Shown here in pieces: positions 7,383 to 57,399 of a stretch of DNA of 64,000 nucleotides. Location: contig NZ_CP162495.1 in NCBI RefSeq assembly GCF_040939125.1, positions 3,596,001 through 3,660,000 on the forward strand. Reading direction: 5' to 3'. The notes below the pieces were generated by a model. That model was not told the DNA's origin. It searched no databases and was given only the letters and a program-made list of their open reading frames with translations. A program made the position numbers and the translations under genes. Origin of the DNA: Clostridium sp. BJN0013 (GTDB lineage: Bacteria; Bacillota; Clostridia; Clostridiales; Clostridiaceae). The stretch's first letter is position 1. Each line of letters opens with the position of its first letter.

Positions 7383-7457
7383 CTCTTAAGCCCCTAAATA
7401 GGTTTGGACGATTACATCTATATTTATTATAATGTAGAAAGTGATTGGAGGTAAACT

Positions 7458-7781
7458 ATGAAAGGAAAAAGTTATACGAAAGAATTAAAAGAAGAGGTAT
7501 TAAGAGAAGTGAAAGAAGTAGGAAATGTTTCACTGGTATCAAGAAGACATGGGATCTCAAAATCAACTATATTTACGTGGATAAAGAATTCTAAGGATGA
7601 GATTAAAGTTAAGCCTGGTAGAAAAGCTTTAGTTGAGGGAGAAAAAGAACTTGAAAATGAGTTAACAGAGGTAACAAAAGAGAATGATCAGCTAAAAAAA
7701 TTGTTAGGAGAAAAAGATTTAGAAATAGCAATTCTTAGAGACTTAATAAAAAAATCAAACCCTCAATTAAAGAAAAAGTAG
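7458..7781 (+). CDS. IS3-family transposase OrfA
   Basis: 107 residues. The N-terminal helix-turn-helix (TKELKEEVLREVKEVGNVSL then SRRHGISKSTIFTWIK) binds the terminal repeats, and residues 60-98 form a leucine-zipper coiled coil (ELENELTEVTKENDQLKKLL). GGAGGT lies 6-7 nt before the ATG. Near its end, A_AAA_AAA at 7748-7754 in the zero frame is a canonical -1 slippery heptamer, allowing an OrfAB fusion of about 416 residues. Confidence 0.9.
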   Translation: MKGKSYTKELKEEVLREVKEVGNVSLVSRRHGISKSTIFTWIKNSKDEIKVKPGRKALVEGEKELENELTEVTKENDQLKKLLGEKDLEIAILRDLIKKSNPQLKKK

Positions 7782-8707
7782 AAATAGCCAAAAAGTATAT
7801 AGATCAAGGATATAATTCGGTATTTGTACTTAAAGTAGTTAAACTTGGAAGGTCAACATATTACTATAATTTAAGCGTAGAAGGCAGAGAAAAGGCTAGA
7901 CCTAAGGGTGGAAAGCCAAAAGGATACAGCATAAACGGAGATGGTGAAAAAGTATGCGATGATCAGATTAAGGAATTTATTCTGGAGGCCATTGACGGGG
8001 ATGCTATTAACTATGGATATAGAAAAATAACTTATCATTTAAAAAAATATTATAATCTTGTGATTAATCATAAGAAGGTTTATCGGCTTTGCAAGGAGCT
8101 TAGAATACTTAAAGACCAGAGAATAATTAAAGCTAAAATAAAGAGAAATATTGCGGTTAACAGAACTATAACAGGCTCAAATCAACTATGGGAAATGGAT
8201 ATAAAATATGGCTACATAGAAGGTGAAGATAAATTCTTCTACTTACTAAATTTAATTGATATCTTTGATAGGAGCATTATAGATTACCACATGGGTTTAC
8301 ACTGTGAGGCTAAAAATGCTACAGCACTACTTAGAAAGTGCTTAATAAAAAGAAACTTGTTTGAGGAAGGCTCTAAAAAGCCAGTAATAAGAACAGACAA
8401 CGGACCTCAGTTTATAAGTCATAAATTTGATGAATGCTGTGAAGAACTTAAAATTGAACATGAGAGAATACCAGTGAAGACGCCAAATAAAAACGCACAT
8501 GTAGAATCATTTCACAGAATACTTGAGGATGAGTGTTTAAAAATTAATGAATTTCAAAGCTATGTGAAAGCATACAAAATAGTAAATGAATTTATGGAAT
8601 TCTACAATAATAGGAGATTACATTCAAGTTTAAGATTTATGGCTCCACATGAATTTTATAACCTTTATTTTGGAGAAAACCTAACAAATATTCAAATAAG
8701 GGCCTAA
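7754..8707 (+). CDS. IS3-family transposase OrfB (DDE integrase)
   Basis: 317 codons in the -1 frame, entered after the A_AAA_AAA slippage. The reading starts IKPSIKEKVEIAKKYIDQGY, an HTH_21-like region. The rve core follows with the three acidic residues: Asp in LWEMDIKYGY, Asp in IRTDNGPQF and Glu in HVESFHRILEDE. It cuts and joins DNA as the OrfAB fusion. An internal ATG at 8060 gives only the catalytic part and is probably not the true start. Confidence 0.88.
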   Translation: MKPSIKEKVEIAKKYIDQGYNSVFVLKVVKLGRSTYYYNLSVEGREKARPKGGKPKGYSINGDGEKVCDDQIKEFILEAIDGDAINYGYRKITYHLKKYYNLVINHKKVYRLCKELRILKDQRIIKAKIKRNIAVNRTITGSNQLWEMDIKYGYIEGEDKFFYLLNLIDIFDRSIIDYHMGLHCEAKNATALLRKCLIKRNLFEEGSKKPVIRTDNGPQFISHKFDECCEELKIEHERIPVKTPNKNAHVESFHRILEDECLKINEFQSYVKAYKIVNEFMEFYNNRRLHSSLRFMAPHEFYNLYFGENLTNIQIRA

Positions 8708-8730
8708 ATTTAAGAGAAATGAAGAATTTA

Positions 8731-9447
8731 TTAGATTCTGTCCAAAACGAAGGGGTTAATCCGTAATAAACCTTTCTGACCTACAGTAGATAGCCATTTA
8801 TGTACTTCATGTTTTGCTAAGGTATAATTTAACACTCTTATATCTAAATCATTTGCATAGAATTGCGTATATGAATCTAATTCAGTCATATTAGGTACTT
8901 TCACACCATTCTCAGTTTTCCTTATCCACTGCTCTTCAGAATATTGGGGTCTATTATCTACTTGCATTGCCATTCCCTCATCAAACCACACTGGAATCTT
9001 TGAACATTTGATCTTATCAATTCTATATGCTAATTCGCTGTGAGTAAGTTCATGGGAAATTACGTTAGTATTTAACCCGTCTGGTCCTAAAATTATATAA
9101 GTTTCTACTATAGTTTTTTGTGTAGCACTTGTCCTATTTTCAACGCCAAATTTTTTTAGAGCTGTTGTATCTTTACTAATTATAAAGATAGGGTTAGCAT
9201 TAAAGCTTCCATATAATTGAGCCACAATATCTTTAGATTTAGAAATATCATTCAATATATTACTTATATCTCCATCAGTAATATCACGTTGTATATAAAT
9301 ATTTTTAGTTACCTCCTTAAAATTTGACAAACTTACCGTATAACAGTTTAATGCATAGACAACTGATCGATTTGATAATATAAAAAATAGAGAAAGAATT
9401 GTCATAAGCACTATAGAACTCATAATAACAATTTTCCTCTTTTTCAC
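8731..9447 (-). pseudogene. Membrane-anchored gluzincin-type metallopeptidase, cut by IS
   Basis: The N-terminus is a single membrane anchor or signal (KIVIMSSIVLMTILSLFFIL). Near residue 135 is SHELTHSE, the HExxH zinc site, and about 25 residues on is VWFDEGMAM with the third ligand Glu, the layout of gluzincin (MA clan) peptidases. The genuine frame ends at 8764, where the IS3-family copy begins; the last residues NPFVLDRI are encoded by the IS end. The lost 22 codons lie at 7310-7382. The active site is intact, so a slightly altered protein could still be made. GGAGG is placed upstream of the ATG. Confidence 0.75.
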
Positions 9448-14401: not shown

Positions 14402-14802
14402 ATGAACACACAGAACTTAAAGACTTTTCTTATACTCTCAAAGTTAAGAAATTTTTCACTTACAGCCGAAAAATTATTTGTAGCACAATCAACTGTCACA
14501 AACCGCATTGCCGAATTAGAAAAAGAAATAGGTAAGAAATTATTCATTCGAGATAAAAAACATATAAAACTGACTTCCGAAGGTATTCTATTCAAAAAAT
14601 ATGCAAAAAGAATTCTGGAATTAGAGAAAAACGCCATACAAGAAATGACTCAAGCAGATTTTTATAAAAACACACTTCGAATTGGAAGTACCAATACTAT
14701 TTATGAATGTCATTTATATCCCATTATCCATTCTTTTCTACTCTCTAGTCGCGACACATCAGTCAAAGTAATACTTGATCATTCGCAGGACCTACTGCAA
14801 AT
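14402..14802 (+). pseudogene. LysR-family regulator, N-terminal part (IS-disrupted)
   Basis: The first 133 codons. The helix-turn-helix is intact: MNTQNLKTFLILSKLRNFSL, then AEKLFVAQSTVTNRIAELEK. The reading continues into the effector domain (LRIGSTNTIYECHLYPII) until LDHSQDLLQ, where the IS3-family copy 2 interrupts it. Removing the element and one AAAT gives DLLQ-MLEDQLLDVV with no loss of frame. AAAGGAG precedes the ATG. It would have controlled the divergent DHA2 pump. The present product is a DNA-binding half followed by IS-encoded residues. Confidence 0.85.
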
Positions 14803-14858
14803 CGGATTAACCCCTTCGTTTTGGACAGAATCTAATAAATTCTTCATTTCTCTTAAAT

Positions 14859-15812
14859 TTAGGCCCTTATTTGAATATTTGTTAGGTTTTCTCCAAAATA
14901 AAGGTTATAAAATTCATGTGGAGCCATAAATCTTAAACTTGAATGTAATCTCCTATTATTGTAGAATTCCATAAATTCATTTACTATTTTGTATGCTTTC
15001 ACATAGCTTTGAAATTCATTAATTTTTAAACACTCATCCTCAAGTATTCTGTGAAATGATTCTACATGTGCGTTTTTATTTGGCGTCTTCACTGGTATTC
15101 TCTCATGTTCAATTTTAAGTTCTTCACAGCATTCATCAAATTTATGACTTATAAACTGAGGTCCGTTGTCTGTTCTTATTACTGGCTTTTTAGAGCCTTC
15201 CTCAAACAAGTTTCTTTTTATTAAGCACTTTCTAAGTAGTGCTGTAGCATTTTTAGCCTCACAGTGTAAACCCATGTGGTAATCTATAATGCTCCTATCA
15301 AAGATATCAATTAAATTTAGTAAGTAGAAGAATTTATCTTCACCTTCTATGTAGCCATATTTTATATCCATTTCCCATAGTTGATTTGAGCCTGTTATAG
15401 TTCTGTTAACCGCAATATTTCTCTTTATTTTAGCTTTAATTATTCTCTGGTCTTTAAGTATTCTAAGCTCCTTGCAAAGCCGATAAACCTTCTTATGATT
15501 AATCACAAGATTATAATATTTTTTTAAATGATAAGTTATTTTTCTATATCCATAGTTAATAGCATCCCCGTCAATGGCCTCCAGAATAAATTCCTTAATC
15601 TGATCATCGCATACTTTTTCACCATCTCCGTTTATGCTGTATCCTTTTGGCTTTCCACCCTTAGGTCTAGCCTTTTCTCTGCCTTCTACGCTTAAATTAT
15701 AGTAATATGTTGACCTTCCAAGTTTAACTACTTTAAGTACAAATACCGAATTATATCCTTGATCTATATACTTTTTGGCTATTTCTACTTTTTCTTTAAT
15801 TGAGGGTTTGAT
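14859..15812 (-). CDS. IS3-family transposase OrfB, copy 2
   Basis: Same sequence as the OrfB at 7754-8707, with the complete DDE triad (MDIKYG, RTDNGPQF, VESFHRILE). It is entered by -1 slippage at the A7 heptamer complementary to 15812-15818. Confidence 0.87.
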   Translation of the reverse strand: MKPSIKEKVEIAKKYIDQGYNSVFVLKVVKLGRSTYYYNLSVEGREKARPKGGKPKGYSINGDGEKVCDDQIKEFILEAIDGDAINYGYRKITYHLKKYYNLVINHKKVYRLCKELRILKDQRIIKAKIKRNIAVNRTITGSNQLWEMDIKYGYIEGEDKFFYLLNLIDIFDRSIIDYHMGLHCEAKNATALLRKCLIKRNLFEEGSKKPVIRTDNGPQFISHKFDECCEELKIEHERIPVKTPNKNAHVESFHRILEDECLKINEFQSYVKAYKIVNEFMEFYNNRRLHSSLRFMAPHEFYNLYFGENLTNIQIRA

Positions 15813-16108
15813 TTTTTTATTAAGTCTCTAAGAATTGCTATTTCTAAATCTTTTTCTCCTAACAATTTTTTTAGCTGATCATTCTCTTTTGTTACCTCTG
15901 TTAACTCATTTTCAAGTTCTTTTTCTCCCTCAACTAAAGCTTTTCTACCAGGCTTAACTTTAATCTCATCCTTAGAATTCTTTATCCACGTAAATATAGT
16001 TGATTTTGAGATCCCATGTCTTCTTGATACCAGTGAAACATTTCCTACTTCTTTCACTTCTCTTAATACCTCTTCTTTTAATTCTTTCGTATAACTTTTT
16101 CCTTTCAT
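15785..16108 (-). CDS. IS3-family transposase OrfA, copy 2
   Basis: 107 residues, identical to OrfA of copy 1, with the helix-turn-helix and coiled coil; GGAGGT ribosome site intact. Confidence 0.88.
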   Translation of the reverse strand: MKGKSYTKELKEEVLREVKEVGNVSLVSRRHGISKSTIFTWIKNSKDEIKVKPGRKALVEGEKELENELTEVTKENDQLKKLLGEKDLEIAILRDLIKKSNPQLKKK

Positions 16109-16187
16109 AGTTTACCTCCAATCACTTTCTACATTATAATAAATATAGATGTAATCGTCCAAACCTATTTAGGGGCTTAAGAGAAAT

Positions 16188-21593: not shown

Positions 21594-21889
21594 ATCTTAT
21601 CAGTTCCACACAATATAAATTCTGTGGAATTGGTACTCTAATTATAATTTACCACTTAGTTAATATTATGGTATATCTTATATGTGTATTTATATCGTAA
21701 TTGTAAATAAGAACGAAACCACTATTAAGTGGTGGCTGCGTTGTAAGTAATTTAAACTTCTGTGGTAAAATCTAAAGATATGTATTTTAAAAGTGGTATT
21801 TATTTTTATCTAAATACCACTTTATTATCATGAACACTTCAATTATTATTATTTTAGGACAAAAATCAAAATAATTGAGGAGTGTTATC

Positions 21890-22738
21890 ATGTCAGAATT
21901 AAGAAAACAAATGAAAATCTATATGGATTTGAAAGGGTACAGTCCAATTACTACAAAATATTATATTAATCACGTTGGCAATTTTGCAAAATACCATAAA
22001 AAATCACCTAATTTATTGGGTGAAAAAGAAATACAAGAGTATTTACACTATTGTATCACAAAAAGATGTTTGACAGAAGGATCTGTAGGTTCAATTTATA
22101 CAGCCCTTAAAATTTTATATACAAAAGTTTTAAACCGGACCTGGGATATTAATAAAATCCCGAGAATAAAAGAACGTAGAAGGTTACCTGTTGTATTATC
22201 GCCTGAAGAGATAAAAGCTATTTTTGATGCTGCCCCAAATATTAAACACAAGGCAATTTTTATGACAATTTATTCTGCAGGATTAAGAGTAAGTGAGGTT
22301 TGCAATCTCAAAGTAACAGATATAGACAGTAAAAATATGCAAATATTTATAAGGCAGGGTAAATGTAAAAAAGATCGATATTCACTTTTATCAGAATTAA
22401 ATCTTCAAGTTCTAAGGGAGTACTGGAAAGAATATAAACCTAAAGAATATTTGTTTTCAGGAAGATATAGGACTGATGCCATAACACCACGCAGCGTTGA
22501 AAGGGTATTTCAGAAGTCAAAGGAAAAAGCAGAGATTACTAAACCTGCAACAGTACATACACTGAGACATAGTTTTGCAACACATCTTTTGGATACCGGA
22601 ACGGATATTTGCTATATTCAGAGACTTTTAGGACATACAAGGATAACTACTACCACCATATATCTACACCTCAGAAGAATGGATTTATTAAATATAAAGA
22701 GTCCACTGGATATACTTATAGGTATAGAAAATGATTGA
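21890..22738 (+). CDS. Tyrosine recombinase of the IS91-type element
   Basis: 282 residues. The N-terminal SAM-like core-binding domain is at residues 1-90 (YMDLKGYSPITTKYYINHVG). The catalytic domain follows with Arg in YSAGLRVSEVCNL, HTLRHSFATHLLDTG (H-x-x-R), LGHTRITTTTIYLHLRR (His and nucleophile Tyr) all in place. GAGGAG 8 nt before the ATG at 21890 fixes the start. It overlaps the HUH transposase gene by 8 nt, so the two are translated together. Some IS91 relatives are known to carry such an accessory recombinase. Confidence 0.88.
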   Translation: MSELRKQMKIYMDLKGYSPITTKYYINHVGNFAKYHKKSPNLLGEKEIQEYLHYCITKRCLTEGSVGSIYTALKILYTKVLNRTWDINKIPRIKERRRLPVVLSPEEIKAIFDAAPNIKHKAIFMTIYSAGLRVSEVCNLKVTDIDSKNMQIFIRQGKCKKDRYSLLSELNLQVLREYWKEYKPKEYLFSGRYRTDAITPRSVERVFQKSKEKAEITKPATVHTLRHSFATHLLDTGTDICYIQRLLGHTRITTTTIYLHLRRMDLLNIKSPLDILIGIEND

Positions 22739-23915
22739 GCTGCAGGATATTTTTATTAAGCATGGAGACGAGTATTGCCAAAAACATAAACTGCCATTCC
22801 ACATTAAAAAGGTAATTTGGAATATTATCTCATGCAGGACGTCAAAGTTAGGCGGTCACATGGATGAATGTGAAGAATGCGGACATATTAGAATTTCTTA
22901 TAATTCTTGTAGAGATAGACACTGTCCTAAATGCCAGACATTAAAAAAAGAAAAATGGATTGAAGATAGAAAAAATGACTTATTACCAGTACCATATTTT
23001 CATGTTGTATTTACTATACCTGAAGAACTAAATTTTTTGGTACTTACAAATCAGAAAGAGATGTATTCTATTTTGTTTAAGTCTGTATCAGAAACTCTTC
23101 TGGAACTTTCAAAGGATGCAAAGTATCTTGGTGCAGAAATAGGTTTTACAACAATACTGCATACTTGGGGACAAAATCTTATGAATCATCCCCATATTCA
23201 TTGTATAGTTACCGGTGGCGGAATATCTTTTGATGGGGTAAGGTGGATTAATTCCAAGGAAGATTTTTTTATACCTGTTAAGGTCCTGTCTGCAAAATTT
23301 CGCGGAAAATTTTTATACTATCTTAAAAAAGAATACTACAGCAATACCAAATTAAAATTTACTGTCGGTATTGAAGATTTAAAATACAAGGATGTTTTTC
23401 ACTGCTTTTTAGACAAGTTGTATAAAAAAGAATGGGTGGTTTATTGTAAAGCTCCATTTAAGAGCAGTGAACATGTATTTGAATATTTAGGAAGATATAC
23501 ACACAGGGTTGCAATTTCAAACAACAGAATTCTTGCTCTTGAAAATGGACTTGTGAGTTTTAAATGGAGAGATTACCGGGATAATAATAAAGAAAAAGTT
23601 ATGACAGTTACAGCTGAAGAATTCATACGTAGATTTTTAATGCATGTGCTGCCACCTAAATTTGTTAAGATAAGACATTATGGAATCTTAAGTAATCGCA
23701 ACCGTAGAACAAAACTTAAAAAATGTAAGATGATTCTTAAAGCTCCGGTGAGTGAAAGCAAAGCTAAATTAAATTTAACAACAGCAGAGTTTATTTTAAA
23801 AGTTGCAGGAATAGATATAAATAAATGTCCATGCTGTAGTGGCAAAATGGTAACCATGAGGAAAATAGAACCGAGGATTTCGGGACCACCAGATAAAAAT
23901 TCTAAAACGGCATAG
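22731..23915 (+). CDS. IS91-family HUH transposase
   Basis: 394 residues. An N-terminal zinc-binding domain (DECEECGHIRISYNSCRDRH then CPKCQ) is followed by the HUH motif in HPHIHCIVTGGGIS near residue 160. The catalytic tyrosine region is YLGRYTHRVAISNNR near residue 260. A final Cys pair CPCCSGKM is at the C-terminus. The enzyme nicks single strands for rolling-circle transposition. Its start overlaps the recombinase stop. The protein looks complete. I did not define the ori and ter ends. Confidence 0.9.
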   Translation: MIELQDIFIKHGDEYCQKHKLPFHIKKVIWNIISCRTSKLGGHMDECEECGHIRISYNSCRDRHCPKCQTLKKEKWIEDRKNDLLPVPYFHVVFTIPEELNFLVLTNQKEMYSILFKSVSETLLELSKDAKYLGAEIGFTTILHTWGQNLMNHPHIHCIVTGGGISFDGVRWINSKEDFFIPVKVLSAKFRGKFLYYLKKEYYSNTKLKFTVGIEDLKYKDVFHCFLDKLYKKEWVVYCKAPFKSSEHVFEYLGRYTHRVAISNNRILALENGLVSFKWRDYRDNNKEKVMTVTAEEFIRRFLMHVLPPKFVKIRHYGILSNRNRRTKLKKCKMILKAPVSESKAKLNLTTAEFILKVAGIDINKCPCCSGKMVTMRKIEPRISGPPDKNSKTA

Positions 23916-24144
23916 ATTATGGAAATTGTTATTAGTTTATTAACTATGGGGAGGGGGAAAGTATGTATGTGGTTAAGTGAAAATTCAACAATTGTAGGGG
24001 TATCTTACAGTTTTACTCTAAATTCTGTGCTAAAATATAAGAAAATATTAAACTTAAGGATATGTGAGGGATATTGAAACCCCATAGTAACTGCCCCGTG
24101 GCTTCGTCCTATAATTCGTTTCGGAAATTGAGCAACTTTAGCAT

Positions 24145-24186
24145 CTAACACCATTTAAGGTATACATTTTATGGTGTTAGTTTTTA
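24145..24186 (+). terminator. Terminator downstream of the IS91-type genes
   Basis: CTAACACCAT and ATGGTGTTAG form a 10-bp stem followed by TTTTTAT on the plus strand. The 230 nt between the transposase stop and this hairpin probably belong to the 3' end of the element; no gene is seen there. Confidence 0.75.
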
Positions 24187-24327
24187 TAAGCTCAAAATCC
24201 GAATACGAATCTATTCATTCCATGACATAAATACTGAAATAAAATAAACAACCAAACCATATATATTTAATTTCAAAAGTAAAATTTATTTTCTTATTTT
24301 ATACCTCTCATCTATTCTCATGTATAA

Positions 24328-24356
24328 AAATAAGTACTGGTTAACTACCAATACTT
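24328..24356 (-). terminator. Terminator overlapping the stop of the small membrane protein gene
   Basis: AAGTATTGGT and ACCAGTACTT pair around a short loop and are followed by ATTTTTATA on the minus strand; the hairpin begins at the stop codon. Confidence 0.6.
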
Positions 24357-24606
24357 ACATAAACATAAAAAATCCTATATAAATTATTCCCATTATAATT
24401 CCCAATACTCCAGCTGACCCTGTATCTCCTTTACAAGGTTTTACAAGACTTAAAACAGCAAAAACAATAGTATTGATAGGAATAACTATAAATATACTTC
24501 CTAAAACCGTATGCAATAATCCTGCAAAAGCAAATAAGGAAGTAGCTAATATTAAAGAAATTATAGCAAACTTATTCATTTTGTTTTGTCTTATGGCTTC
24601 TGGCAT
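24355..24606 (-). CDS. Small two-to-three-helix membrane protein (DUF4190-like)
   Basis: 83 residues. A short polar head (MPEAIRQNKMNK) is followed by hydrophobic segments FAIISLILATSLFAFAGLLH, IFIVIPINTIVFAVLSLV and GVLGIIMGIIYIGFFMFM. The pattern and the link VKPCKGDTGSAGVLGI resemble DUF4190 membrane proteins of Firmicutes. The role is unknown. A GGGGGT ribosome site lies 6-7 nt before the ATG; own terminator. Confidence 0.6.
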   Translation of the reverse strand: MPEAIRQNKMNKFAIISLILATSLFAFAGLLHTVLGSIFIVIPINTIVFAVLSLVKPCKGDTGSAGVLGIIMGIIYIGFFMFM

Positions 24607-24815
24607 AATTATTACCCCCTAAACTAATCTTATTAATTATAACATTTAGTTCATTCGTTATCAATATTTACCTTTTAATTAAATTATAATGTCCACGACA
24701 AATTAAATCCATATTTCATTAATAGTTACTGAACAATATTCATATGCTGACATGTACTGCAAAGTAAGCGTGATATGTTAAATCAAAAATATTGAAAAGT
24801 TCGAGTGAACACTTA

Positions 24816-24848
24816 CCGCAAACAAAGGTTTTTTGTTTGTGGTTTTTT
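24816..24848 (+). terminator. Hairpin with T run in front of a truncated transporter gene
   Basis: CCGCAAACAAA and TTTGTTTGTGG pair and are followed by TTTTTT. It lies only ~10 nt before the ribosome site of the EamA-like gene at 24866, so it could act as an attenuator or the platform of a regulatory leader. No known riboswitch core was recognised in 24607-24815. Confidence 0.55.
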
Positions 24849-24865
24849 ATTTTAGGAGGTATATT

Positions 24866-25036
24866 ATGATTGATTTATTTTGGCCTATTATAATTGTTGT
24901 AGCAGCAAATACTCTATATAATATCAGTGCGAAATTAACACCTAGTGAAGTACACCCTTGCGCATCACTTTCTATAACCTATTTTACAGCTGCTTTATTA
25001 TCTATACTATTATTTTTTATTACAAAGGTAAAATAA
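24866..25036 (+). pseudogene. EamA/DMT-type transporter, truncated
   Basis: 56 residues, MIDLFWPIIIVVAANTLYNI, then SAKLTPSEVHPCASLSITYF and a second helix. This is the first two helices of a drug/metabolite transporter. It ends at tandem stops; pieces such as SLAWVLSEMLAI (another frame, ~25055-25095) suggest that more of the gene follows out of frame. TAGGAGG precedes the ATG. Confidence 0.55.
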
Positions 25037-25207
25037 TAAGATATTATCTATTTTATTCCTTAGCCTGGGTTTTGTCGGAAATGTTGGCGATACCCCAATC
25101 ATACTGAATTTTAAATTAATGTTAAATAATTATTATAATTATTGATAACTAATATAATCTATCATATGATTATGAATAATTATATAAAAAAATTAGGAAG
25201 TGATATT

Positions 25208-25681
25208 GTGCAAAAGAAGGTATTGTTTTTATGTACTCAAAATTCTGCAAGAAGCCAAATGGCAGAGGCCATACTAAATGATAAGGGTAAAGACAAATTT
25301 ATTGCTTTTAGTGCAGGAAGTCAGCCAGCCGATGATATTAATATTTATGCTAAAATTGTTATGAAAGAAATGGGTATAGATATTAGTAATTACAAACCTA
25401 AGTCAATAGAGCAATTTTTAAATGAGGAGTTTGATTTTGTTATTACACTATGTGATAAGGCTAAAAATGAATGTCCTATTTTACCAAAGGATGCTATTTA
25501 TGTACACTGGGGAATAACTGACCCAAGAGACTTTAAAGGCAACGAGGAAGAAACAGTTACTCACTTTAAAAAAATAAGAAATGAGTTAAATACAAGAATT
25601 AATTTACTTATTGATCTACCAGTAGATAAATTAGACAAAGCAACTCTGAGGAAAAGATTAGATGAAATAATTTCAAAATAA
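25208..25681 (+). CDS. arsC: Arsenate reductase / arsenate-type LMW phosphatase
   Basis: 157 residues. KVLFLCTQNSARSQMAEAIL carries the CX5R nucleophile loop near residue 10. SAGSQPADDINIYA and the two resolving cysteines in ITLCDKAKNECPILP are those of thioredoxin-coupled arsenate reductases. WGITDPRDFKG is the conserved Asp-Pro loop. It reduces arsenate to arsenite, the substrate of the Acr3 pump encoded nearby. The start is taken as GTG, because AGGAAGTG lies 5-9 nt before it. It precedes the arsR operon and is separated from it by a strong palindrome. Confidence 0.88.
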   Translation: MQKKVLFLCTQNSARSQMAEAILNDKGKDKFIAFSAGSQPADDINIYAKIVMKEMGIDISNYKPKSIEQFLNEEFDFVITLCDKAKNECPILPKDAIYVHWGITDPRDFKGNEEETVTHFKKIRNELNTRINLLIDLPVDKLDKATLRKRLDEIISK

Positions 25682-25849
25682 TCTTTTAGTACATGGTTAT
25701 AATAAAAGATTAATGTACTTTATTTAAGAAATGTTCAGCTGATGATGTTCATGAACTCATGTAAAATGAGAAAAATGTTACAGTGATATTATCTTAAAGT
25801 TATTTATTAAAAATTGATAAATATAGGTAACAAATAAATATTCACTACA

Positions 25850-25891
25850 TAGACTATTATATATATAATAGTCTATTATTTTTTATTATTT
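25850..25891 (+). terminator. Perfect 26-bp palindrome with T run (end of arsC or operator)
   Basis: TAGACTATTATAT and ATATAATAGTCTA form a perfect dyad followed by TTATTTTTTATTATTT. It can end the arsC transcript. It also contains AATAGTCTA, which occurs in the ArsR operator 50 nt on (25919-25927), so it may bind the repressor too. Confidence 0.6.
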
Positions 25892-25902
25892 CAATAATTA
25901 TA

Positions 25903-25939
25903 TTGACACTATATAGATAATAGTCTATATTATCTATAT
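25903..25939 (+). promoter_or_regulatory. ars operon promoter with ArsR operator
   Basis: TTGACA (25903-25908) and TATATT (25926-25931) are 17 nt apart. The dyad ATATAGATAATA-GTCTA-TATTATCTATAT (25911-25939), a perfect 12-bp inverted repeat, covers the spacer and the -10. A repressor bound there would block RNA polymerase. The same geometry recurs at 29647-29678. Confidence 0.85.
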
Positions 25940-25952
25940 AAGGAGTGACTTT

Positions 25953-26291
25953 ATGAATTTGGATTATAAATTAAACGCAAAAATATTCAAGGCACTGTCT
26001 GATCAAAACAGGTTAAAAATTATTGATATACTTTCCTGTGGTGAAAAATGTGCATGTGATTTATTGGAAAATTTTAATTTTACACAGCCTACTCTATCCC
26101 ACCACATGAAGGTGTTGATGGATTGTAACCTTATTAAATGTAGAAAAGAAGGGATCTGGAATTACTATTCATTAGACAATGCTAATGCAAACAAGCTGAT
26201 GCTGTTCTTGATGAATATTATAACAGATACCGAAGAATGTATATGCAAAGGTCAGAGTACTGGTTTATGTAAAACTGATAATGAAAAATAA
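25953..26291 (+). CDS. arsR: ArsR-family arsenic-responsive repressor
   Basis: 112 residues. KIFKALSDQNRLKIIDILSC is the first part of the winged helix; GEKCACDLLENFNFTQPTLS holds the ELCVCDL-type metal site, here KCACDL with two cysteines, and the recognition helix; HHMKVLMDCNLIKCRKEG follows. Further cysteines at the C-terminus (ECICKGQSTGLC) could add ligands. AAGGAG 8 nt before the ATG. It is the first gene of the operon and lies 14 nt after its own operator, so autoregulation by arsenite or antimonite is expected. Confidence 0.92.
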   Translation: MNLDYKLNAKIFKALSDQNRLKIIDILSCGEKCACDLLENFNFTQPTLSHHMKVLMDCNLIKCRKEGIWNYYSLDNANANKLMLFLMNIITDTEECICKGQSTGLCKTDNEK

Positions 26292-26314
26292 ATTTATAAA
26301 CAGGAGGAATATAT

Positions 26315-27373
26315 ATGAAAGGTAAATCATCTAGATTATCGTTACTTGATCGTTATTTGACACTTTGGATATTTCTTGCCATGTTTATAGGAATTCTATT
26401 TGGGTGGGGAATACCAGGAATATCAAAAGGTTTATCTAATCTATCTATAGGTACTACATCCATACCTATAGCCATTGGACTTATTGTAATGATGTATCCA
26501 CCCCTTGCCAAAGTAAACTATAAAGAATTCCATAAGGTTTTTAGGAATCCTAAAGTTTTGGGGTTATCACTTTTACAAAACTGGATTATAGGACCAATTT
26601 TAATGTTTATACTTGCATTTGTTTTTTTAAAGTCATATCCAGCATTTATGACTGGACTTATATTAATTGGTCTTGCAAGATGTATTGCTATGGTTATCGT
26701 TTGGAATAGTTTAGCTGATGGTGATACAGAATATGCAGCTGCTCTTGTAGCTTTCAACTCAATTTTTCAAGTTATATTTTATTCAATGTATTGTTATATA
26801 TTTATAACTGTTTTACCAACATGGTTTGGACTTACCGGTTACAGGGTGGATATTTCTATAGTTAAAGTAGCAGAATCCGTAGCAATTTATCTTGGGATAC
26901 CATTTGCGGCTGGTTTATTTACAAGACTATTACTAGAACCTAAAATGGGAACAGAGTGGTATACAAAAAAATTCATACCTAAGGTAAGTCCACTGGCATT
27001 AATTGCTTTACTATTTACTATAATAATCATGTTTACTTATAAGGGAAAATATATAGTTGAACTTCCTTTTGATGTTATAAGAATAGCTGTTCCACTTTTA
27101 ATATACTTTGTAATAATGTTCTCAGTCTCATTCTTTATAAGTTATAAATCTGGAATAGATTATAAAAAAACAACTACACTGTCATTTACCGCAGCAAGTA
27201 ATAACTTTGAACTTGCAATAGCAGTTGCAGTTGCAGTATTTGGAATAGAATCAAAAGAAGCTTTTACAGCTGTTATAGGTCCATTAGTTGAAGTGCCCGT
27301 TATGATAGGTCTTGTAAATGTAGCACTACATTGGAGAAAAAAATATTTTAAGATACCTACAAAATTAGGTTAA
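26315..27373 (+). CDS. acr3: Acr3-family arsenite efflux permease
   Basis: 352 residues and 10 membrane segments. The N-terminus [20 protein letters not shown] and the conserved [19 protein letters not shown] (with the essential Cys of Acr3) identify it, together with [20 protein letters not shown] near the end. It exports arsenite using the proton-motive force. GGAGGAATATAT precedes the ATG, 23 nt after arsR. It is the second gene of the arsR operon. Confidence 0.93.
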
Positions 27374-27391
27374 ATATGGAGGAATACAATT

Positions 27392-27802
27392 ATGAAACCA
27401 AAGGTAGCATTTATATGCGTACACAATTCTTGTAGATCACAAATGGCAGAAGCTTTAGGAAAATTATTTGCAAATGATATATTTGAATCCTATTCTGCTG
27501 GGACAGAATTAAGACCAACTATAAATCAAGATGCAGTAAGAATTATAAAGGATTTATATAATATTGATATGAATAAAACACAGAAGTCAAAATTGCTAAA
27601 GGATCTTCTCAAAATTGATATAGTAGTAAAAATGGGATGTAATGTAGTATGTCCTTTCTTACCTTCAAAGTATACAGAGGATTGGGATTTGGAAGATCCT
27701 TCTGGGAAAAGTAATGATGAGTTTATAAAAACAGCTAAAGCCATTGAAGAAAAAATTAAAGACTTAGCTAAAAGAATTGAAAATAAAGAAATTAAATTAT
27801 AA
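27392..27802 (+). CDS. arsC: Arsenate reductase (second, operon copy)
   Basis: 136 residues, clearly different from the one at 25208. The nucleophile loop is FICVHNSCRSQMAEALGKLF (C-x5-R). SAGTELRPTINQDAV and GCNVVCPFLPSKYTEDWDLE follow, with cysteines placed for the redox relay. TGGAGG precedes the ATG and only 18 nt separate it from acr3. Its last 61 bp (27743-27803) are duplicated at 29515-29575, on the far side of hgcAB. Confidence 0.9.
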   Translation: MKPKVAFICVHNSCRSQMAEALGKLFANDIFESYSAGTELRPTINQDAVRIIKDLYNIDMNKTQKSKLLKDLLKIDIVVKMGCNVVCPFLPSKYTEDWDLEDPSGKSNDEFIKTAKAIEEKIKDLAKRIENKEIKL

Positions 27803-27803
27803 G
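27743..27803 (+). repeat. 61-bp direct repeat, left copy (3' end of arsC)
   Basis: The last 19 codons and stop of arsC. It recurs at 29515-29575 with three mismatches, so the two copies bracket the 1.7-kb segment carrying the thioredoxin-like remnant, hgcA and hgcB. Confidence 0.9.
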
Positions 27804-27820
27804 ATGTAACAAAGATAAAA

Positions 27821-27901
27821 TACTCTCTAAACTTGTTCAAATTTGGAGCATTGGAGAAGTCTGTGAAGGATATCAGTGAAAATACTGAGATTGATATGTA
27901 G
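27821..27901 (+). pseudogene. Thioredoxin-like (redox-active disulfide) remnant
   Basis: The open stretch reads YSLNLFKFGALEKSVKDISE and ends NTEIDM. It resembles the N-terminal strand and helix of the small Thioredoxin_3 proteins, in which GC-x-x-C precedes ALEKxVK; here the cysteines are lost (FKFGALEK). Such genes are common in arsenic operons. There is no start codon. The identification rests on a short match. Confidence 0.4.
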
Positions 27902-27990
27902 GAATTACTATAACAATCTAAAAAAATGCTCTAATGATTCTGAGTGCAAATAAGTTTTATAGGAAATTAGAGGTTTGGGAGGTTAGAAAA

Positions 27991-29199
27991 TTGGATAACA
28001 TTAATTGCTGTAATTCTGGAAAAAAGCTTGAGAAGAATACAAAAGTTAAAATAGTAAGAATAAAGCAAAAACCTACCGATGGATCTATTTCTTCTAAGTG
28101 TGAGACAACTCAAAATTCATATTGTTGTGGAAATGGAAGTAAGGAATCATGTGAACCCATTACTAAATATGATACAAAGCAGAAATGGATAATTGGAGAG
28201 ATAAGTACCTCACAAGGCTGTATACCACGTATTTCTACTAAATTGGCATTTACTGATACATTGGGTACATGGAAAGTACGCTTCGGAATAAACAGGATGA
28301 ATTATAAAATCAATCCAGGACTCTATGCAGTAGGAACACCTGATGACACAGCTCCTGTTCTGGTAACAGCAAACTATAAACTGACCTTTGATACTTTGAG
28401 AAAAGAGCTGGGTGGACTTAATGCATGGATAGTGGTGTTGGATACGAAAGGGATAAATGTATGGTGTGCAGCAGGTAAAGGAACATTTGGAACTAAGGAA
28501 CTTGTGAGCAGAATTTCAAAAGTAAGGCTTTCTCAAATTGTATCACACAAAACGTTGGTACTCCCTCAGCTTGGGGCACCTGGAATAAGTGCTCACGAGG
28601 TTACAAAGAAGTCTGGTTTTAAAGTGGTATATGGTCCTGTAAGAGCTGAAGATATAAAAAAGTTTTTAGAAGCAGAAATGAAAGCCACAGAAGAAATGCG
28701 TGAAGTGAGGTTTAATATAATTGACAGGGTGGTTCTGACACCAGTTGAATTTGTAAGTACTTTTAAAATTGCCATGTTAGTTTTTGGAGTAATGTTTCTT
28801 ATAAATTTATTTGCCGTTAATCCTTTTGGAGTAATTGATTTTTATGCATTTATAGGTGCATTGCTGGTAGGCTGTGTTATAACCCCTGTATTACTGCCAT
28901 GGATTCCAGTAAGGGCTTTTGCTGCAAAAGGCTGGATTATGGGACTTATTTGGGCAGTCACTGTAAATATACTTAATGGTTGGTCTGCAATACCGGAATA
29001 TGGTGTATTAAAAACTGTTGCATATTTATTGATTTTACCATCTATAGCCTCATATTATGCTATGAACTTTACAGGATCTTCTACTTATACATCTTTCTCA
29101 GGTGTAATAAAGGAGATGAAGATAGCAGTTCCTGCAATTGCTGTTTCAATAGGACTTGGGGTGGGGTTACTTTTGATAAACAGCCTTATTCATATTTAA
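27991..29199 (+). CDS. hgcA: HgcA, corrinoid protein for mercury methylation
   Basis: 402 residues. The N-terminal globular domain holds GLYAVGTPDDTAPVLVTANY and the family signature GINVWCAAGKGTFGT, with Cys159 in the cap helix that ligates the cobalt of the corrinoid. VSHKTLVLPQLGAPGISAHE and GFKVVYGPVRAEDI follow. The C-terminal third has five membrane segments (from IAMLVFGVMFLINLFAV on). In known HgcA this protein passes a methyl group to Hg(II), forming methylmercury. The start is a TTG, with GGGAGG 8 nt before it. An extra Cys-rich N-terminal stretch (NCCN, SKCE, SYCCGN) of ~60 residues is notable. It is followed by hgcB after 10 nt, and no terminator separates it from arsC. Confidence 0.93.
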   Translation: MDNINCCNSGKKLEKNTKVKIVRIKQKPTDGSISSKCETTQNSYCCGNGSKESCEPITKYDTKQKWIIGEISTSQGCIPRISTKLAFTDTLGTWKVRFGINRMNYKINPGLYAVGTPDDTAPVLVTANYKLTFDTLRKELGGLNAWIVVLDTKGINVWCAAGKGTFGTKELVSRISKVRLSQIVSHKTLVLPQLGAPGISAHEVTKKSGFKVVYGPVRAEDIKKFLEAEMKATEEMREVRFNIIDRVVLTPVEFVSTFKIAMLVFGVMFLINLFAVNPFGVIDFYAFIGALLVGCVITPVLLPWIPVRAFAAKGWIMGLIWAVTVNILNGWSAIPEYGVLKTVAYLLILPSIASYYAMNFTGSSTYTSFSGVIKEMKIAVPAIAVSIGLGVGLLLINSLIHI

Positions 29200-29209
29200 G
29201 GAGGGTGCT

Positions 29210-29509
29210 ATGAAAAATAAGTATTTGAAAAATGTCTGTACACTTGAGGTTGATTCAGATAAATGTGTTGGCTGTGGAAGATGTATTGAGGTTTGTCCAC
29301 ATAAAGTATTTAATCTAAATAAAGGTAAGGTTGAACTTATCAATAAGGATAGTTGTATGGAATGCGGCGCATGTGCAAAAAACTGTTCCTTTAATGCCAT
29401 TGAGGTAAAATCAGGTGTTGGATGTGCCTACGCAGTTATAATGGGATGGCTTTTAGGTACTGAGCCTACATGTGATTGTTCAAGTGATAATAGCAACGGG
29501 TGCTGTTAA
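29210..29509 (+). CDS. hgcB: HgcB, 2[4Fe-4S] ferredoxin partner of HgcA
   Basis: 99 residues. There are two cluster motifs: CVGCGRCIEVCP (Cys19, 22, 25, 29) and CMECGACAKNC (Cys49, 52, 55, 59). It also has the extra features that set HgcB apart from ordinary ferredoxins: an N-terminal Cys10, a Cys72 beyond the second cluster, and a C-terminal Cys pair (Cys98-Cys99). HgcB is thought to reduce the corrinoid of HgcA and to present Hg(II). AAGGAGGGTGCT precedes the ATG. Confidence 0.93.
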   Translation: MKNKYLKNVCTLEVDSDKCVGCGRCIEVCPHKVFNLNKGKVELINKDSCMECGACAKNCSFNAIEVKSGVGCAYAVIMGWLLGTEPTCDCSSDNSNGCC

Positions 29510-29514
29510 ATAAG

Positions 29515-29575
29515 ATTGAAGGAAAAATTAAAGACCTAGCTAAAAGAATTAAAAATAAAGAAATTAAATTATAAG
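29515..29575 (+). repeat. 61-bp direct repeat, right copy (arsC 3' end)
   Basis: ATTGAAGGAAAAATTAAAGA and onward to AAATTATAAG repeats 27743-27803 with three substitutions. It starts 5 nt after the hgcB stop and includes the arsC stop codon. A possible weak hairpin with GGCC arms (29576-29617) follows and could be the original operon end. Confidence 0.9.
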
Positions 29576-29646
29576 GGCCAATAAAAGTGAGTAAGATAGA
29601 AATTTTTATTTCGGCCATGTGCTATTGCTTTATTTTAATAATTTTA

Positions 29647-29678
29647 TTGATACCATATAGAATATGATCTATTCTATA
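29647..29678 (+). promoter_or_regulatory. Second ArsR-type promoter/operator
   Basis: TTGATA (29647-29652), a 17-nt spacer and TATTCT (29670-29675), covered by the perfect dyad TATAGAATA-TGATC-TATTCTATA (29656-29678). The arrangement and the start TTGAyACyATATAGA match the ars promoter at 25903, which suggests control by the same repressor. Confidence 0.7.
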
Positions 29679-29708
29679 ATAAAAAATATACAAATGAGAG
29701 GTGTTCCT

Positions 29709-29912
29709 ATGAGTATACAAATTTTTGAAGCATCTAAAGAAATACATGATAAGTTCAAAGAGAAATTTAAATACACTTGCTGTCGTGCACTTACTGAAGA
29801 TGTTGAATGGGGAAAATCAGAACATCACGAAAACTGTGAAAAATATGTTGTTTACACATCTGAAGTTACTGAAAATATATTAAAAATAATAGACAAAAGT
29901 ATATATATTTAA
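29709..29912 (+). CDS. Small Cys-containing protein, C_GCAxxG_C_C-like tail
   Basis: 67 residues from MSIQIFEASKEIHDKFKEKF. The block KYTCCRALTEDVEWGKSEHH and ENCEKYVVYTSEV resembles the C-terminal half of the C_GCAxxG_C_C redox proteins (pattern xxCCRxLT...H..C), but the first half with the GCAxxG motif is absent. GAGAGGTG precedes the ATG. It has its own ArsR-like operator, so it probably belongs to the arsenic/mercury response. I infer a redox or metal-binding role. Confidence 0.55.
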   Translation: MSIQIFEASKEIHDKFKEKFKYTCCRALTEDVEWGKSEHHENCEKYVVYTSEVTENILKIIDKSIYI

Positions 29913-30237
29913 CATAATAACTCTAAGCTTAAATTTTAAATTATTAAAAAAGGAAGAGTTGTTTTGGCTAACTTAATAATTGAATTAAGTGTATTAGTAC
30001 AATTAGGCATGAAAAACATAACTAGTTTAATATTCAAGCTATTGATTTTTCTATGATTAAATCATTCTGCGTAAGTACTGTTTAGAATAAAAACTATACT
30101 TTTTCAAGATCTTTTAAACCTCTTGTTTTTATAAATAAAAATAATTACGAGTTAACTTGGAATATACGTCCGCACTCCATTTTGTAACACCCTATATCCC
30201 TTCTCCCTATAACAAGTAAAGTATGATAAATCTCTAG
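29913..30237. other. 325-bp gap, no gene seen
   Basis: AT-rich sequence between the small Cys protein and a decayed hemN-like gene; no open frame, hairpin or repeat that I can support. Confidence 0.4.
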
Positions 30238-30546
30238 CTACCTCCCAAGGATGATTTAAAAGATGATTTTACTAATGCATTTGAATCAAGAGCAACTCAA
30301 GTTTCAACCTATCCTTTTATTGATTTTTCCTATGCCAACAACAAAAGTAAGCCTTTAGGGAAAAAGATAAAAAAGCTTTTTGAATATCTTGAGACAGTAG
30401 GTGAAGAACTTCAGTGTACTAGAACTGCTGTATGGACTTTTGGCAAGAAAGATGTTCCTAAATATTCTTCTGTTACAAGAGATAATTTTATAGGCTTTGG
30501 CCCAAGCGCTACTACTGTTTTAAGAGAACCTATAAATATCATTTAG
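30238..30546 (+). pseudogene. HemN-like radical SAM protein, internal fragment
   Basis: The frame reads LPPKDDLKDDFTNAFESRAT, VSTYPFIDFSYANN and later RTAVWTFGKKDVPKYSSVTR and DNFIGFGPSATT. The last blocks match the middle of coproporphyrinogen oxidase-like radical SAM enzymes (W-x-F...YSSVTRDNFIGFGPSA). The CxxxCxxC cluster site upstream and the C-terminal domain are missing. Confidence 0.6.
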
Positions 30547-30711
30547 TTGAACAGGCCTGTATTCATCAATACATAGATAAAACTTGATATTTAAACTCAA
30601 GAACTCATCTATGTCAATTGATTAGATTGTCATATTTAGGGAAATCAGTTCTATGCACAAAAATTATTGGACTCATCTCACAGAACTTAGATAATAAGGA
30701 GGTTGCCGTAA

Positions 30712-31359
30712 TTATAGTACCATATCAAATTTATCTATTGTTGTTTGAATGCTGTTAATCAACTTACTTACGTGATATCCATCAGCCACTGCATGTGATA
30801 TTGTCACAGAAAATGGCATTACCCATTTTCCATTTTCTTTATTGTACTTTCCATATGTTATAATGGGCATTAATGGTGGATTAGAATCACTAGTGTATGT
30901 TGAATATCCTGTAAAACTAAGCCATGGAACACAAGATATGCAGTAAAAATTTTCAGGCTGATTTGGCTTAGTCTTCATGCCTTTAGTATTTGAGTACTTT
31001 TGAATATCACATTTATAATTATCATAGAATTTGTAAAAGTCATCTGTATATTCTGACCAAATATCTGAGAAGGTATGATCATCTTCATGAAAAATTGTAT
31101 AATTAGGATGAACAATATCATATAAAATTAGCGTATTATTTTTTCTCCAACTCATTCGAAACTCTGGCATTAAGTTAATGTTATAAGTAACGCAATAAAT
31201 GAAGGAAGGATAAAATTTTAGATTATTATTTTTTAACGACTTTTTAAACAAAGTAACATCAATCTTTGCAGTAATACTATAACCACATTTAAGCTTTTCT
31301 GTATAATATTTAAAATGTTCTTTTCTTTCCCATTTTTCGAAATCAATTATATGAAACAT
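30712..31359 (-). CDS. cat: Chloramphenicol O-acetyltransferase (type A)
   Basis: 215 residues, the usual length. The N-terminus FEKWERKEHFKYYTEKLKCG, the substrate pocket region and the catalytic SHAVADGYHVSKLI (H-x-x-x-D-G) near residue 190 are complete. The trimeric enzyme acetylates chloramphenicol with acetyl-CoA; chromosomal relatives may act on other acceptors. GGGGGAC precedes the ATG. It is isolated between two decayed genes, in line with acquisition as a cargo gene. Confidence 0.88.
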   Translation of the reverse strand: MFHIIDFEKWERKEHFKYYTEKLKCGYSITAKIDVTLFKKSLKNNNLKFYPSFIYCVTYNINLMPEFRMSWRKNNTLILYDIVHPNYTIFHEDDHTFSDIWSEYTDDFYKFYDNYKCDIQKYSNTKGMKTKPNQPENFYCISCVPWLSFTGYSTYTSDSNPPLMPIITYGKYNKENGKWVMPFSVTISHAVADGYHVSKLINSIQTTIDKFDMVL

Positions 31360-31662
31360 AATCTAGGTCCCCCTTGATAATTGTATTTAATATAAGCTAT
31401 AAATTATCTATATGACTTATATCTTCTTTATTATGTTATACAATATTTTGAAACAACTTTTTAATTTATAAGAATTTAATCTATATAAATTAAAATCCCA
31501 AATACAATAATTAAAATTATTAAAATAAGTAAACATTTTAATCAGGAAATTTCTTGTTCATGGTCATTAAGCTAAGAAGAGTATATAAAAATACTACAAG
31601 GATTAAAATCACTAGAATTTTTCATATAATTCATATTATTTATATTATTTATACAAGTATAT
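31360..31662. other. 300-bp gap, no gene seen
   Basis: Very AT-rich; no coding or structural signal that I can support. Confidence 0.4.
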
Positions 31663-31839
31663 CTAACATTTTTTAGGATTATTAATTAATAATTTTATAA
31701 TTTGATAATTTTCGGTATCCTCATAGTTAACTTTTTTTATAGTATTATCCAACTCATAGATTATTGAATCTGGATAGGTCGTTACTATTGGAGAATGGGT
31801 AGCAATTATAAACTGAGAATCATTTTGAATTAAATCCAT
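31663..31839 (-). pseudogene. AAA-family ATPase, C-terminal fragment
   Basis: MDLIQNDSQFIIATHSPIVT, YPDSIIYELDN and KKVNYEDTENYQIIKLLINN match the end of predicted ABC-like AAA ATPases, where QFIIATHSPI is the switch-His segment after Walker B. The remainder of the gene is absent. Confidence 0.6.
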
Positions 31840-31953
31840 ATACTATGGCAATAGCTTCAAGTATTTATGAATCAAAATAACATAGCTTTTTAACTATTAT
31901 TTTTGTAGATTGCCGTAATTACTCCAGGACTTATTTAATACTACAACCGTAAA

Positions 31954-31988
31954 TAAAAAAACTTCAACTTAGAACTCTAAGTTGAAGT
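31954..31988 (-). terminator. Terminator of the M1 peptidase gene
   Basis: ACTTCAACTTAGA and its complement around 31961-31988 form an 11-bp or longer stem, followed by TTTTTTTA on the minus strand, about 50 nt past the stop. Confidence 0.8.
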
Positions 31989-32040
31989 CAAATTAAAATT
32001 TTTTATGTCTTCTTCTTTTTTAAATACTGACATATAATCT

Positions 32041-57324: not shown

Positions 57325-57399
57325 AGTTTACCTTCAATCACTTTCTACATTATAATAAATATAGATGTAATCGTCCAAACCTATTTAGGGGCTTAAGAG

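Follow-up and report, generated by a model that had tools for sequence, protein, structure and literature searches.

Control of hgcAB expression decides the timing of methylmercury production, and the locus described here raises the question of what controls this gene pair when only a broken leftover of its usual regulator precedes it. The window, by which we mean the whole stretch of 64,000 nucleotides from Clostridium sp. BJN0013, carries arsR, acr3, arsC, hgcA and hgcB in a single run on the plus strand (25953-29509 in the ORF listing), the order already read in the preliminary description. Because hgcAB lie at the tail of the ars operon, behind that leftover, they appear to be now under arsenic control. 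The features of the locus are the following:

25838..25952, plus strand: putative ars promoter/operator region, with TTGACA-17-TATATT at 25903-25931
25953..26291, plus strand: arsR, CxCD-type ArsR/SmtB repressor (NF033788)
26315..27373, plus strand: acr3, arsenite efflux permease (TIGR00832)
27392..27802, plus strand: arsC, arsenate reductase of the low-molecular-weight-phosphatase type (PF01451)
27743..27803, plus strand: arsC 3' end, first copy of direct repeat D1 (61 bp; repeat search)
27801..27953, plus strand: decayed 3' part of an arsR-like gene ("hgcR" here), by local alignment, ending with TAA at 27951-27953
27977..27982, plus strand: putative hgcA ribosome-binding site GGGAGG
27991..29199, plus strand: hgcA, probable TTG start, with a Cys-rich N-terminus, a corrinoid domain with NVWCAAGK and five membrane helices
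29210..29509, plus strand: hgcB, 2[4Fe-4S] ferredoxin (NF040864)
29515..29575, plus strand: 3' end of a second arsC, repeat copy 2, lacking the 5' part (repeat search)
29576..29626, plus strand: arsD 5'-end relic, by alignment to arsC-arsD junctions
29694..29912, plus strand: C-terminal portion of a protein of the C_GCAxxG_C_C family (TIGR01909, PF09719)

The identity of the two hgc products was assessed with curated profiles and a tree. HgcA scored 493.9 bits against NF040863 (cut-off 275) and 203.2 bits against the look-alike HgcAB-like fusion family NF043039, under the cut-off of 285 for that family, and HgcB scored 129.5 bits against NF040864 (cut-off 99). In the tree, 80 HgcA rows split with an SH-aLRT of 100 from four CFeSP rows, which had been verified as such with NF003195 (581-595 bits, cut-off 306), and the window HgcA formed one set, also at 100, with those of Clostridium liquoris DSM 100320 (locus L002) and of a related MAG contig that may be misbinned (locus L003). 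The nearest HgcA is that of C. liquoris, with 83% identity over 370 columns. The curated scores and the tree thus rule out the fusion family and CFeSP as identities. The hallmarks of HgcA are a cap helix with NVWCA(A/S)GK and, towards the C-terminus, about five membrane helices; numbering from the TTG at 27991, NVWCAAGK begins at residue 156, followed by five hydropathy peaks between residues 258 and 396, only some of which pass a stricter threshold. The HgcB translation contains two CxxCxxCxxxC motifs, Cys10, Cys72 and the C-terminal Cys pair. The preliminary description had recognized a true HgcA and HgcB by these same features and had proposed a profile search and a tree as the check; both place the window protein inside the HgcA clade and not with CFeSP. 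A literature search on the Cys-rich N-terminus of HgcA found nothing with the terms used.

The new part of this locus is, by alignment, a molecular fossil, the decayed remnant of a regulator gene between arsC and hgcA. This gap matches the last ~40% of the arsR-like gene located before hgcAB in C. liquoris and the related MAG, with local alignment scores from position 27814 of 124 against L003 and 102 against L002, compared with means of 21-22 (sd about 3, maximum 36) in 1000 shuffles; the stretch 27801-27813 was included on visual inspection of the ungapped join. A plain spacer was rejected on the basis of this alignment. At its full length the hgcA ORF covers 27934-29199 on the plus strand, and the ATG at 27934 was rejected as the start because it sits inside the remnant of another gene and the relatives open at TTG. 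The start is probably the TTG at 27991, located 8 bases after GGGAGG, a motif found before the TTG start of L002 as well, and a corresponding TTG opens hgcA in both L002 and L003.

In a scan of positions 24000-32000, nothing resembling a terminator appeared between arsC and hgcA, in agreement with the preliminary description, which had also named a promoter or terminator within 27803-27990 as what would isolate hgcAB from the ars transcript; no promoter match lies entirely within those limits either. The RNA of the gap has a better fold than its shuffled versions (z -2.8; 2 of 200 shuffles did as well), with no T run after the fold. Since AT-rich DNA gives promoter-like matches by chance, a new weak promoter for hgcAB is possible, and hgcAB could be independent of ars if such a promoter had arisen in the remnant or in the arsC tail, in which case the effect of arsenite would be small. 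The 188-bp gap is large enough for a promoter and such matches are frequent (55 in the scanned region against a shuffle mean of 53, hence no excess), the nearest being TTGAAA-17-TAAGAT at 27777-27805 with 9/12 positions. However, it is outside the gap that this match begins, the corresponding 3' stretch of the gene in L002 and L003 runs directly into hgcA, and the palindrome-like stretches of these two loci are located upstream of the regulator gene, in such a way that we consider independent expression unlikely. As for terminators in other genomes, a terminator-like hairpin was found at the end of arsC in G001 and, some 120 bp past arsC, a weaker one in G003. We do not claim that the join removed a terminator, because the scanner found none in G010 and only one on the opposite strand in G002.

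The predicted operon upstream is intact in gene content and order. ArsR scored 93.8 bits against NF033788 (cut-off 55), Acr3 442.1 bits against TIGR00832 (cut-off 282.8) and ArsC 59 bits against PF01451 (LMWPc/ArsC-like, cut-off 23.2), the best NCBIfam arsenate-reductase score of the latter being 78.1, under the cut-off of 215. The TTGACA-17-TATATT site is the best plus-strand promoter match in 24000-32000 (11/12), a score equalled by a minus-strand site at 24664, and the region around it carries two mutually inverted copies of a ATAGTCTAT-type stretch (inverted repeat I4, 80% complementary). In a tree of 112 columns with many open forks, the window ArsR formed a set, at an SH-aLRT of 99, with 8 of the 10 ArsRs from ars operons of the genus and with that of locus L009, which belongs to another family than the window genome, apart from the hgcA-adjacent ArsRs of L002 and L003, which pair at 98. 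By this placement, the working ArsR is of the ars-operon type of the genus and not an hgcAB-type regulator. At the DNA level, 25802-26320 is 84% identical to G011 and 26345-27802 is 91% identical to G003, though the ArsR before acr3 in the G003 operon is only 33% identical; arsC adjoins acr3 in G001, G003, G010 and G012. These data bear on whether the five genes came ready-made as one unit, as the identical gene order in Desulfosporosinus acididurans (L020) might suggest. Such an origin is extremely improbable, given the identity of acr3-arsC to G003 DNA and the position of ArsR among those of the genus, and also that hgcA is nearest to C. liquoris while the HgcA of L020 occupies another part of the tree, and that the join carries a remnant of the C. 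liquoris/L003 kind.

The hgcAB pair lies between two copies of the arsC 3' end, identical in 58 of 61 bases. The sequence that follows the downstream copy resembles an arsC-arsD junction, with matches of 79% to G009 over 29515-29626 and of 81% to G007 over 29515-29623; the gene after arsC in G009 we take to be arsD by its place and sequence features. The next fragment, which covers positions 66-120 of the 120 of TIGR01909 (32.3 bits, under the cut-off of 47.4) and scores 34.1 bits against PF09719 (over the cut-off of 27), is probably outside the hgc unit. The arsR-like remnant, the repeated end of arsC, the relic of arsD and the evidence for horizontal gain had all escaped the preliminary description.

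The distribution of hgcA was also studied. Matches above the cut-off were found in 1 of 13 genomes of the genus and 14 of 206 of the family, and for the other 12 genus genomes the strongest DNA match in every case falls in the ars part of the region, those of G003 and G010 stopping at the arsC stop codon. Weak, CFeSP-like matches to the HgcA profile appeared in 6 of these 12, and in G000 there was none besides hgcA. The dS of hgcA to C. liquoris is 0.46, against 1.43 for gyrB, 1.94 for recA and 1.56 for dnaN, all housekeeping dS values (1.4-1.9) for C. liquoris and G185 being near saturation. For G003, a genome without an hgcA match, the values are 0.23 for gyrB, 0.39 for recA, 0.37 for dnaN and 0.40 for acr3. 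Such uneven divergence points to transfer, and hgcA was probably gained horizontally because its dS is far under those of the three housekeeping genes. The picture from hgcB (99 codons) is less clear, since its dS of 1.14 to C. liquoris (0.44 to L003) does not repeat the low hgcA value. Among 72,556 plasmid records, from which near own-genome records may have been omitted, neither the 4.15-kb region (megablast) nor 333 residues of HgcA (tblastn) had a match, so these searches do not support plasmid-borne transfer; they say nothing on other vectors.

The gene hgcA is under purifying selection, with dN/dS of 0.22-0.24 to L002 and L003; that of hgcB ranges from 0.05 to 0.26. This bears on the idea that hgcAB are a decaying passenger under the wrong promoter, unselected and heading for loss as in other family members, an idea that the adjacent relics of regulator, second arsC and arsD would favor, as would the internal stops in the hgcA matches of G084 and G174. 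Against it, both genes are fully open, with cap helix and Cys residues intact, and the dN/dS values are low, though they average over the time before the join; we therefore regard decay as quite unlikely. The genome also has a cbiD gene and two pterin-binding proteins, and no clear MerA was found in it, as the best match reached 354.7 bits with a cut-off of 454.45.

The account that we favor, with a probability of about 0.7 as a whole, is that hgcAB arrived intact by horizontal transfer within a C. liquoris-like unit (arsR-like regulator, hgcA, hgcB and arsC), which would then have fused with the resident arsR-acr3-arsC operon at its 3' end. This fusion would have deleted the promoter of hgcAB and roughly the first 60% of the regulator gene, leaving a 3' remnant to decay, and a further deletion may have taken most of the second arsC. 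With no recognizable promoter of their own, hgcAB would be expressed by read-through from the ars promoter, in such a way that ArsR would repress the whole operon without arsenite, and arsenite would free ArsR, raising efflux permease, arsenate reductase, HgcA and HgcB together. As hgcAB stand behind an intact operon and nothing isolating was found, arsenite-inducible expression, anticipated in the preliminary description, is the best prediction from the sequence. It is very unlikely that the selected role of HgcAB is a part in defence against arsenite or a comparable thiol-binding metalloid, methylation of mercury being a side activity, although under that reading the pair would be repeatedly rebuilt beside ars genes, and purifying selection would be kept despite loss of the regulator and control by an efflux operon.

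Under the favored account, the locus resembles a natural regulator swap in which the remains of the old regulator are still visible, so it can separate two ideas on hgcAB control: should the pair be active here and respond to arsenite, it would need no dedicated regulator, and its association with arsenic would be a functional one. By gene content, this strain is a likely methylator of Hg(II) in a genus in which 12 of 13 examined genomes had no HgcA match above the cut-off, and arsenic could increase methylmercury formation.

The general link between hgcAB and arsenic genes is already known. In the available text of McDaniel et al. 2020 (PMC7438021), hgcAB are flanked by acr3 and arsC with arsR-like genes nearby, supporting the statement of the preliminary description that such regulators occur near hgcAB in other bacteria; its intact upstream operon also stands, but not as the first such case, given those loci and that of D. 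acididurans. The loci of McDaniel et al., as there described, share with the window the physical linkage of hgcAB to ars efflux and reductase genes, but the flanking is at distances of a few ORFs and not by a complete upstream operon with a remnant at the join. In Desulfovibrio/Pseudodesulfovibrio, an arsR-like gene is reported, in papers that cite Goni-Urriza 2020 and Gionfriddo 2023, to be co-transcribed with hgcAB; for ND132, citing papers credit Gionfriddo et al. 2023 with control of hgcAB by an ArsR that responds to arsenic. Those genes, like the window pair, stand behind an ArsR-family regulator, with an arsenic response reported there; in the window, by contrast, the regulator is that of an efflux operon, acr3 and arsC lie between, and the hgcAB-type regulator is just a fragment. 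Literature searches for hgcA returned nothing with C. liquoris and, in the text accessible, nothing beyond a B12 review with Clostridium kluyveri.

Among 80 relatives, arsC or acr3 is directly upstream of hgcAB in 4 and directly downstream in 14. D. acididurans M1 (L020) has arsR-acr3-arsC-hgcA-hgcB on one strand like the window, but with another HgcA branch and another ArsR type, and only 22 bp separate its arsC from the called hgcA start, too few to hold such a remnant. Syntrophomonas sp. UBA5288 (L009) has a window-type ArsR followed by an arsC stretch, hgcA and hgcB; unlike the window, its arsC is broken by stops, no acr3 lies between and its HgcA is on another branch. C. liquoris (L002), with no Acr3 match within its 13-kb locus, differs in the intact arsR-like gene directly before hgcA and in an arsC broken by a stop, and shares with the window the closest HgcA, the corresponding TTG start and the place of arsC after hgcB, where the window keeps the 3' end of its second arsC.

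The preliminary description had set out hgcA and hgcB, the mercury methylation genes, as the last members of a row in the order arsR, acr3, arsC, hgcA, hgcB on one strand. This row was borne out by ORF calling:

25953-26291, plus strand, arsR
26315-27373, plus strand, acr3
27392-27802, plus strand, arsC
pair ending at 29509, plus strand, hgcA and hgcB

In profile searches, HgcA reached 493.9 bits (curated cut-off 275) and HgcB 129.5 bits (curated cut-off 99), and the HgcAB-like fusion family was rejected as the identity, at 203.2 bits and under its cut-off of 285. The hallmarks attributed to HgcA were recovered as the NVWCAAGK cap-helix motif itself and, for the five membrane helices, as five hydropathy peaks. 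A tree was built from 80 HgcA rows (L030, where hgcA is split, omitted) and four rows of the look-alike corrinoid protein CFeSP, all verified as such. The window protein lay inside HgcA, apart from CFeSP (SH-aLRT 100), and was grouped with those of Clostridium liquoris (L002) and a related MAG contig (L003), again with SH-aLRT 100. No other HgcA-profile match was detected in its genome. On the minus strand, at 30712-31359, there is a gene for a CatA-like acetyltransferase (245.7 bits; type A cut-off 270).

The hgcA of both L002 and L003 is immediately preceded by an arsR-like gene that is intact, here called hgcR. The arsC-hgcA gap of the window matches the 3' part of this gene from 27814, with scores of 102 (L002) and 124 (L003); 1000 dinucleotide shuffles for each averaged 20.8 and 21.9, with an sd of about 3, and never exceeded 36. 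By eye, the likeness extends ungapped as far back as the stop codon of arsC, where the window has TAAGATG and L003 has AAAGATG, and its 3' limit is the hgcR stop, TAA at 27951-27953. The in-frame reading is broken by a stop and by frame changes, and the first ~60% of hgcR, including the DNA-binding part, is missing at the join together with the DNA upstream of it. Judged by these alignments, the gap is a fossil of hgcR. An ATG at 27934 was discarded as the start of hgcA because it falls within this remnant of another gene; TTG 27991 is the counterpart of the TTG that opens hgcA in both L002 and L003, with 8 bases between a GGGAGG and this codon. The N-terminal extension that follows (27991-28230) is Cys-rich, with a CC close to its start and CCGNGSKESC farther on, and might serve as a metal-handling tail. 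Of 79 HgcA rows (window plus L002-L081, L030 and L063 left out), 54 have a CC ahead of the corrinoid domain, among them 13 of the 13 with ars genes downstream.

The 3' end of arsC occurs twice, once on either side of the hgcAB pair (27743-27803 and 29515-29575), with 58 of 61 bases identical. The DNA beyond the second copy matches the arsC-arsD junction of two genomes of the genus, G009 and G007, at 79-81%, so that 29576-29626 is taken for a relic of arsD. L002 has, after hgcB, an arsC that is itself broken. By these matches, the hgcAB locus is a place where two ars operons meet. In the simplest reading, hgcR-hgcA-hgcB-arsC would have been a former unit, whose joining to the resident arsC would have cut off its front; most of the unit's own arsC would have been deleted as well. 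Some 2 kb ahead of arsR, two genes in tandem (21875-23915) encode a tyrosine recombinase and an IS91-type transposase, elements of a kind able to move adjoining DNA. An insertion sequence is also present three times (7380-8766, 14802-16183 and 56018-57407), with ~95% identity to its counterparts in G003 and G004, and its copy at 7380-8766 codes for an HTH_Tnp_1 protein and an rve protein.

The regulator now in front was placed in an ArsR tree of 70 rows and 112 columns with many unresolved forks. It fell in one set, with SH-aLRT 99, with eight of the ten ArsRs included from the genus and that of Syntrophomonas sp. UBA5288 (L009), its highest identity being 89%, to G002. The remaining two genus rows were placed elsewhere, one of them the ArsR of the second ars locus of the window's genome. 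The hgcR proteins of L002 and L003 formed a separate pair (SH-aLRT 98), supporting that the present regulator is not of their kind. A search of the window's genome with L003 hgcR returned five ArsR relatives, two of them at 53% and 49% identity and the other three weaker; a close hgcR was not among them. Just upstream of arsR lies a second, separate arsC-type reductase (25142-25681); the stretch holding both genes (25107-26320) is unbroken in G002, with 82% DNA identity.

In line with the preliminary description, a sequence scan found no terminator-like site between arsC and hgcA. Since, in addition, arsR has the best promoter match on the plus strand and the DNA expected to hold the pair's own promoter is absent at the join, the best prediction is that hgcAB would be made by read-through transcription that begins at the ars promoter and is released by arsenite. 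The window's genome encodes CbiD and two pterin-binding proteins. Among the 12 other genus genomes, six gave weak CFeSP-like matches to the HgcA profile (two of the six verified as CFeSP); the window's genome gave none besides hgcA, so the methyl group would have to be supplied by another methyltransferase.

With the window's genome counted, hgcA scores above the cut-off in one of the 13 genomes compared from the genus and in 14 of the 206 from the family. The best match to a 4.15-kb query lay in the ars part in all 12 other genus genomes, stopping at the arsC stop in G003 and G010. The arsR-acr3-arsC row is unbroken, with a close ArsR, in G010 and G012; the upstream ArsR of G003 is only 33% identical to that of the window.

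Synonymous divergence of hgcA was 0.46 to L002 and 0.49 to L003, against 1.43-1.94 for housekeeping genes in G115 and G185, the genomes taken as theirs by contig coordinates (gyrB 1.43 and 1.43, recA 1.94 and 1.53, dnaN 1.56 and 1.80, respectively). This difference suggests that hgcA passed from one lineage to another. The value for acr3 to G003, 0.40, is near those of its housekeeping genes (gyrB 0.23, recA 0.39, dnaN 0.37) and fits vertical descent. Against the transfer reading counts hgcB (99 codons), with 1.14 to L002 and 0.44 to L003. By their dN/dS, 0.22-0.24 for hgcA and 0.05-0.26 for hgcB, both genes were under selection across the time compared. Two other family genomes contain hgcA matches with internal stops (L145 in G174, L144 in G084); hgcA may have been lost repeatedly, assembly errors being the alternative cause.

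Linkage was scored with locally built profiles, for same-strand genes within 400 bp, in the best 80 of at least 544 confirmed relatives. Among these 80, arsC or acr3 lies immediately upstream of hgcA in four (L020 of Desulfosporosinus acididurans M1, L035, L040 and L047) and directly downstream in 14, an arsR-like gene alone is in front in 29, and no ars or arsR-like neighbour was scored in 33, which counts against a general ars-hgcAB rule. The count is conservative, as some contigs end near hgcA and the ars genes of L056, L061 and L080 lie beyond 400 bp. On the HgcA tree the upstream ars state takes five changes for five members, window included, which suggests separate origins, with many forks open. 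In L009 (1387-3547) an ArsR of the window's type is followed by a stop-broken arsC, overlooked by the ORF step of the count, and then by hgcA and hgcB; this locus may be a parallel case. Acetivibrio mesophilus has two hgcAB loci (L021, L029), both preceded by an arsR-like gene and followed by arsC.

The portions available of McDaniel et al. 2020 (PMC7438021) describe acr3 and arsC as flanking genes of hgcAB, mention arsM and arsR-like genes in the vicinity, and infer hgcAB transfers. The available text of PMC10349881 gives ars genes on 4 of 35 hgcAB contigs and arsR on none; among 31 genomes of confirmed methylators it counts 14 with an arsR no more than three ORFs upstream of hgcA. The parts seen of PMC10349881 and of two later papers, PMC12953829 and PMC13362967, cite Gionfriddo et al. 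2023 for control of the ArsR type that responds to arsenic in ND132; PMC12953829, in its available part, places arsR away from hgcAB in its own genomes. Going by these excerpts, a general ars-hgcAB claim is thus not new. The earlier observation is confirmed and its interpretation partly supported: the ars operon carrying hgcAB as its tail stands on the gene row, the identity of both proteins and a scan that found no terminator, and the general link was already known (PMC7438021, as far as its available text goes). Among the papers met in a literature search, most of them judged by their listing alone, none gave an account of a regulator remnant at an ars-hgcAB join. As read from the sequence, what is new relative to the known association is that an hgcAB-type regulator has visibly been exchanged for the control of an ars operon.
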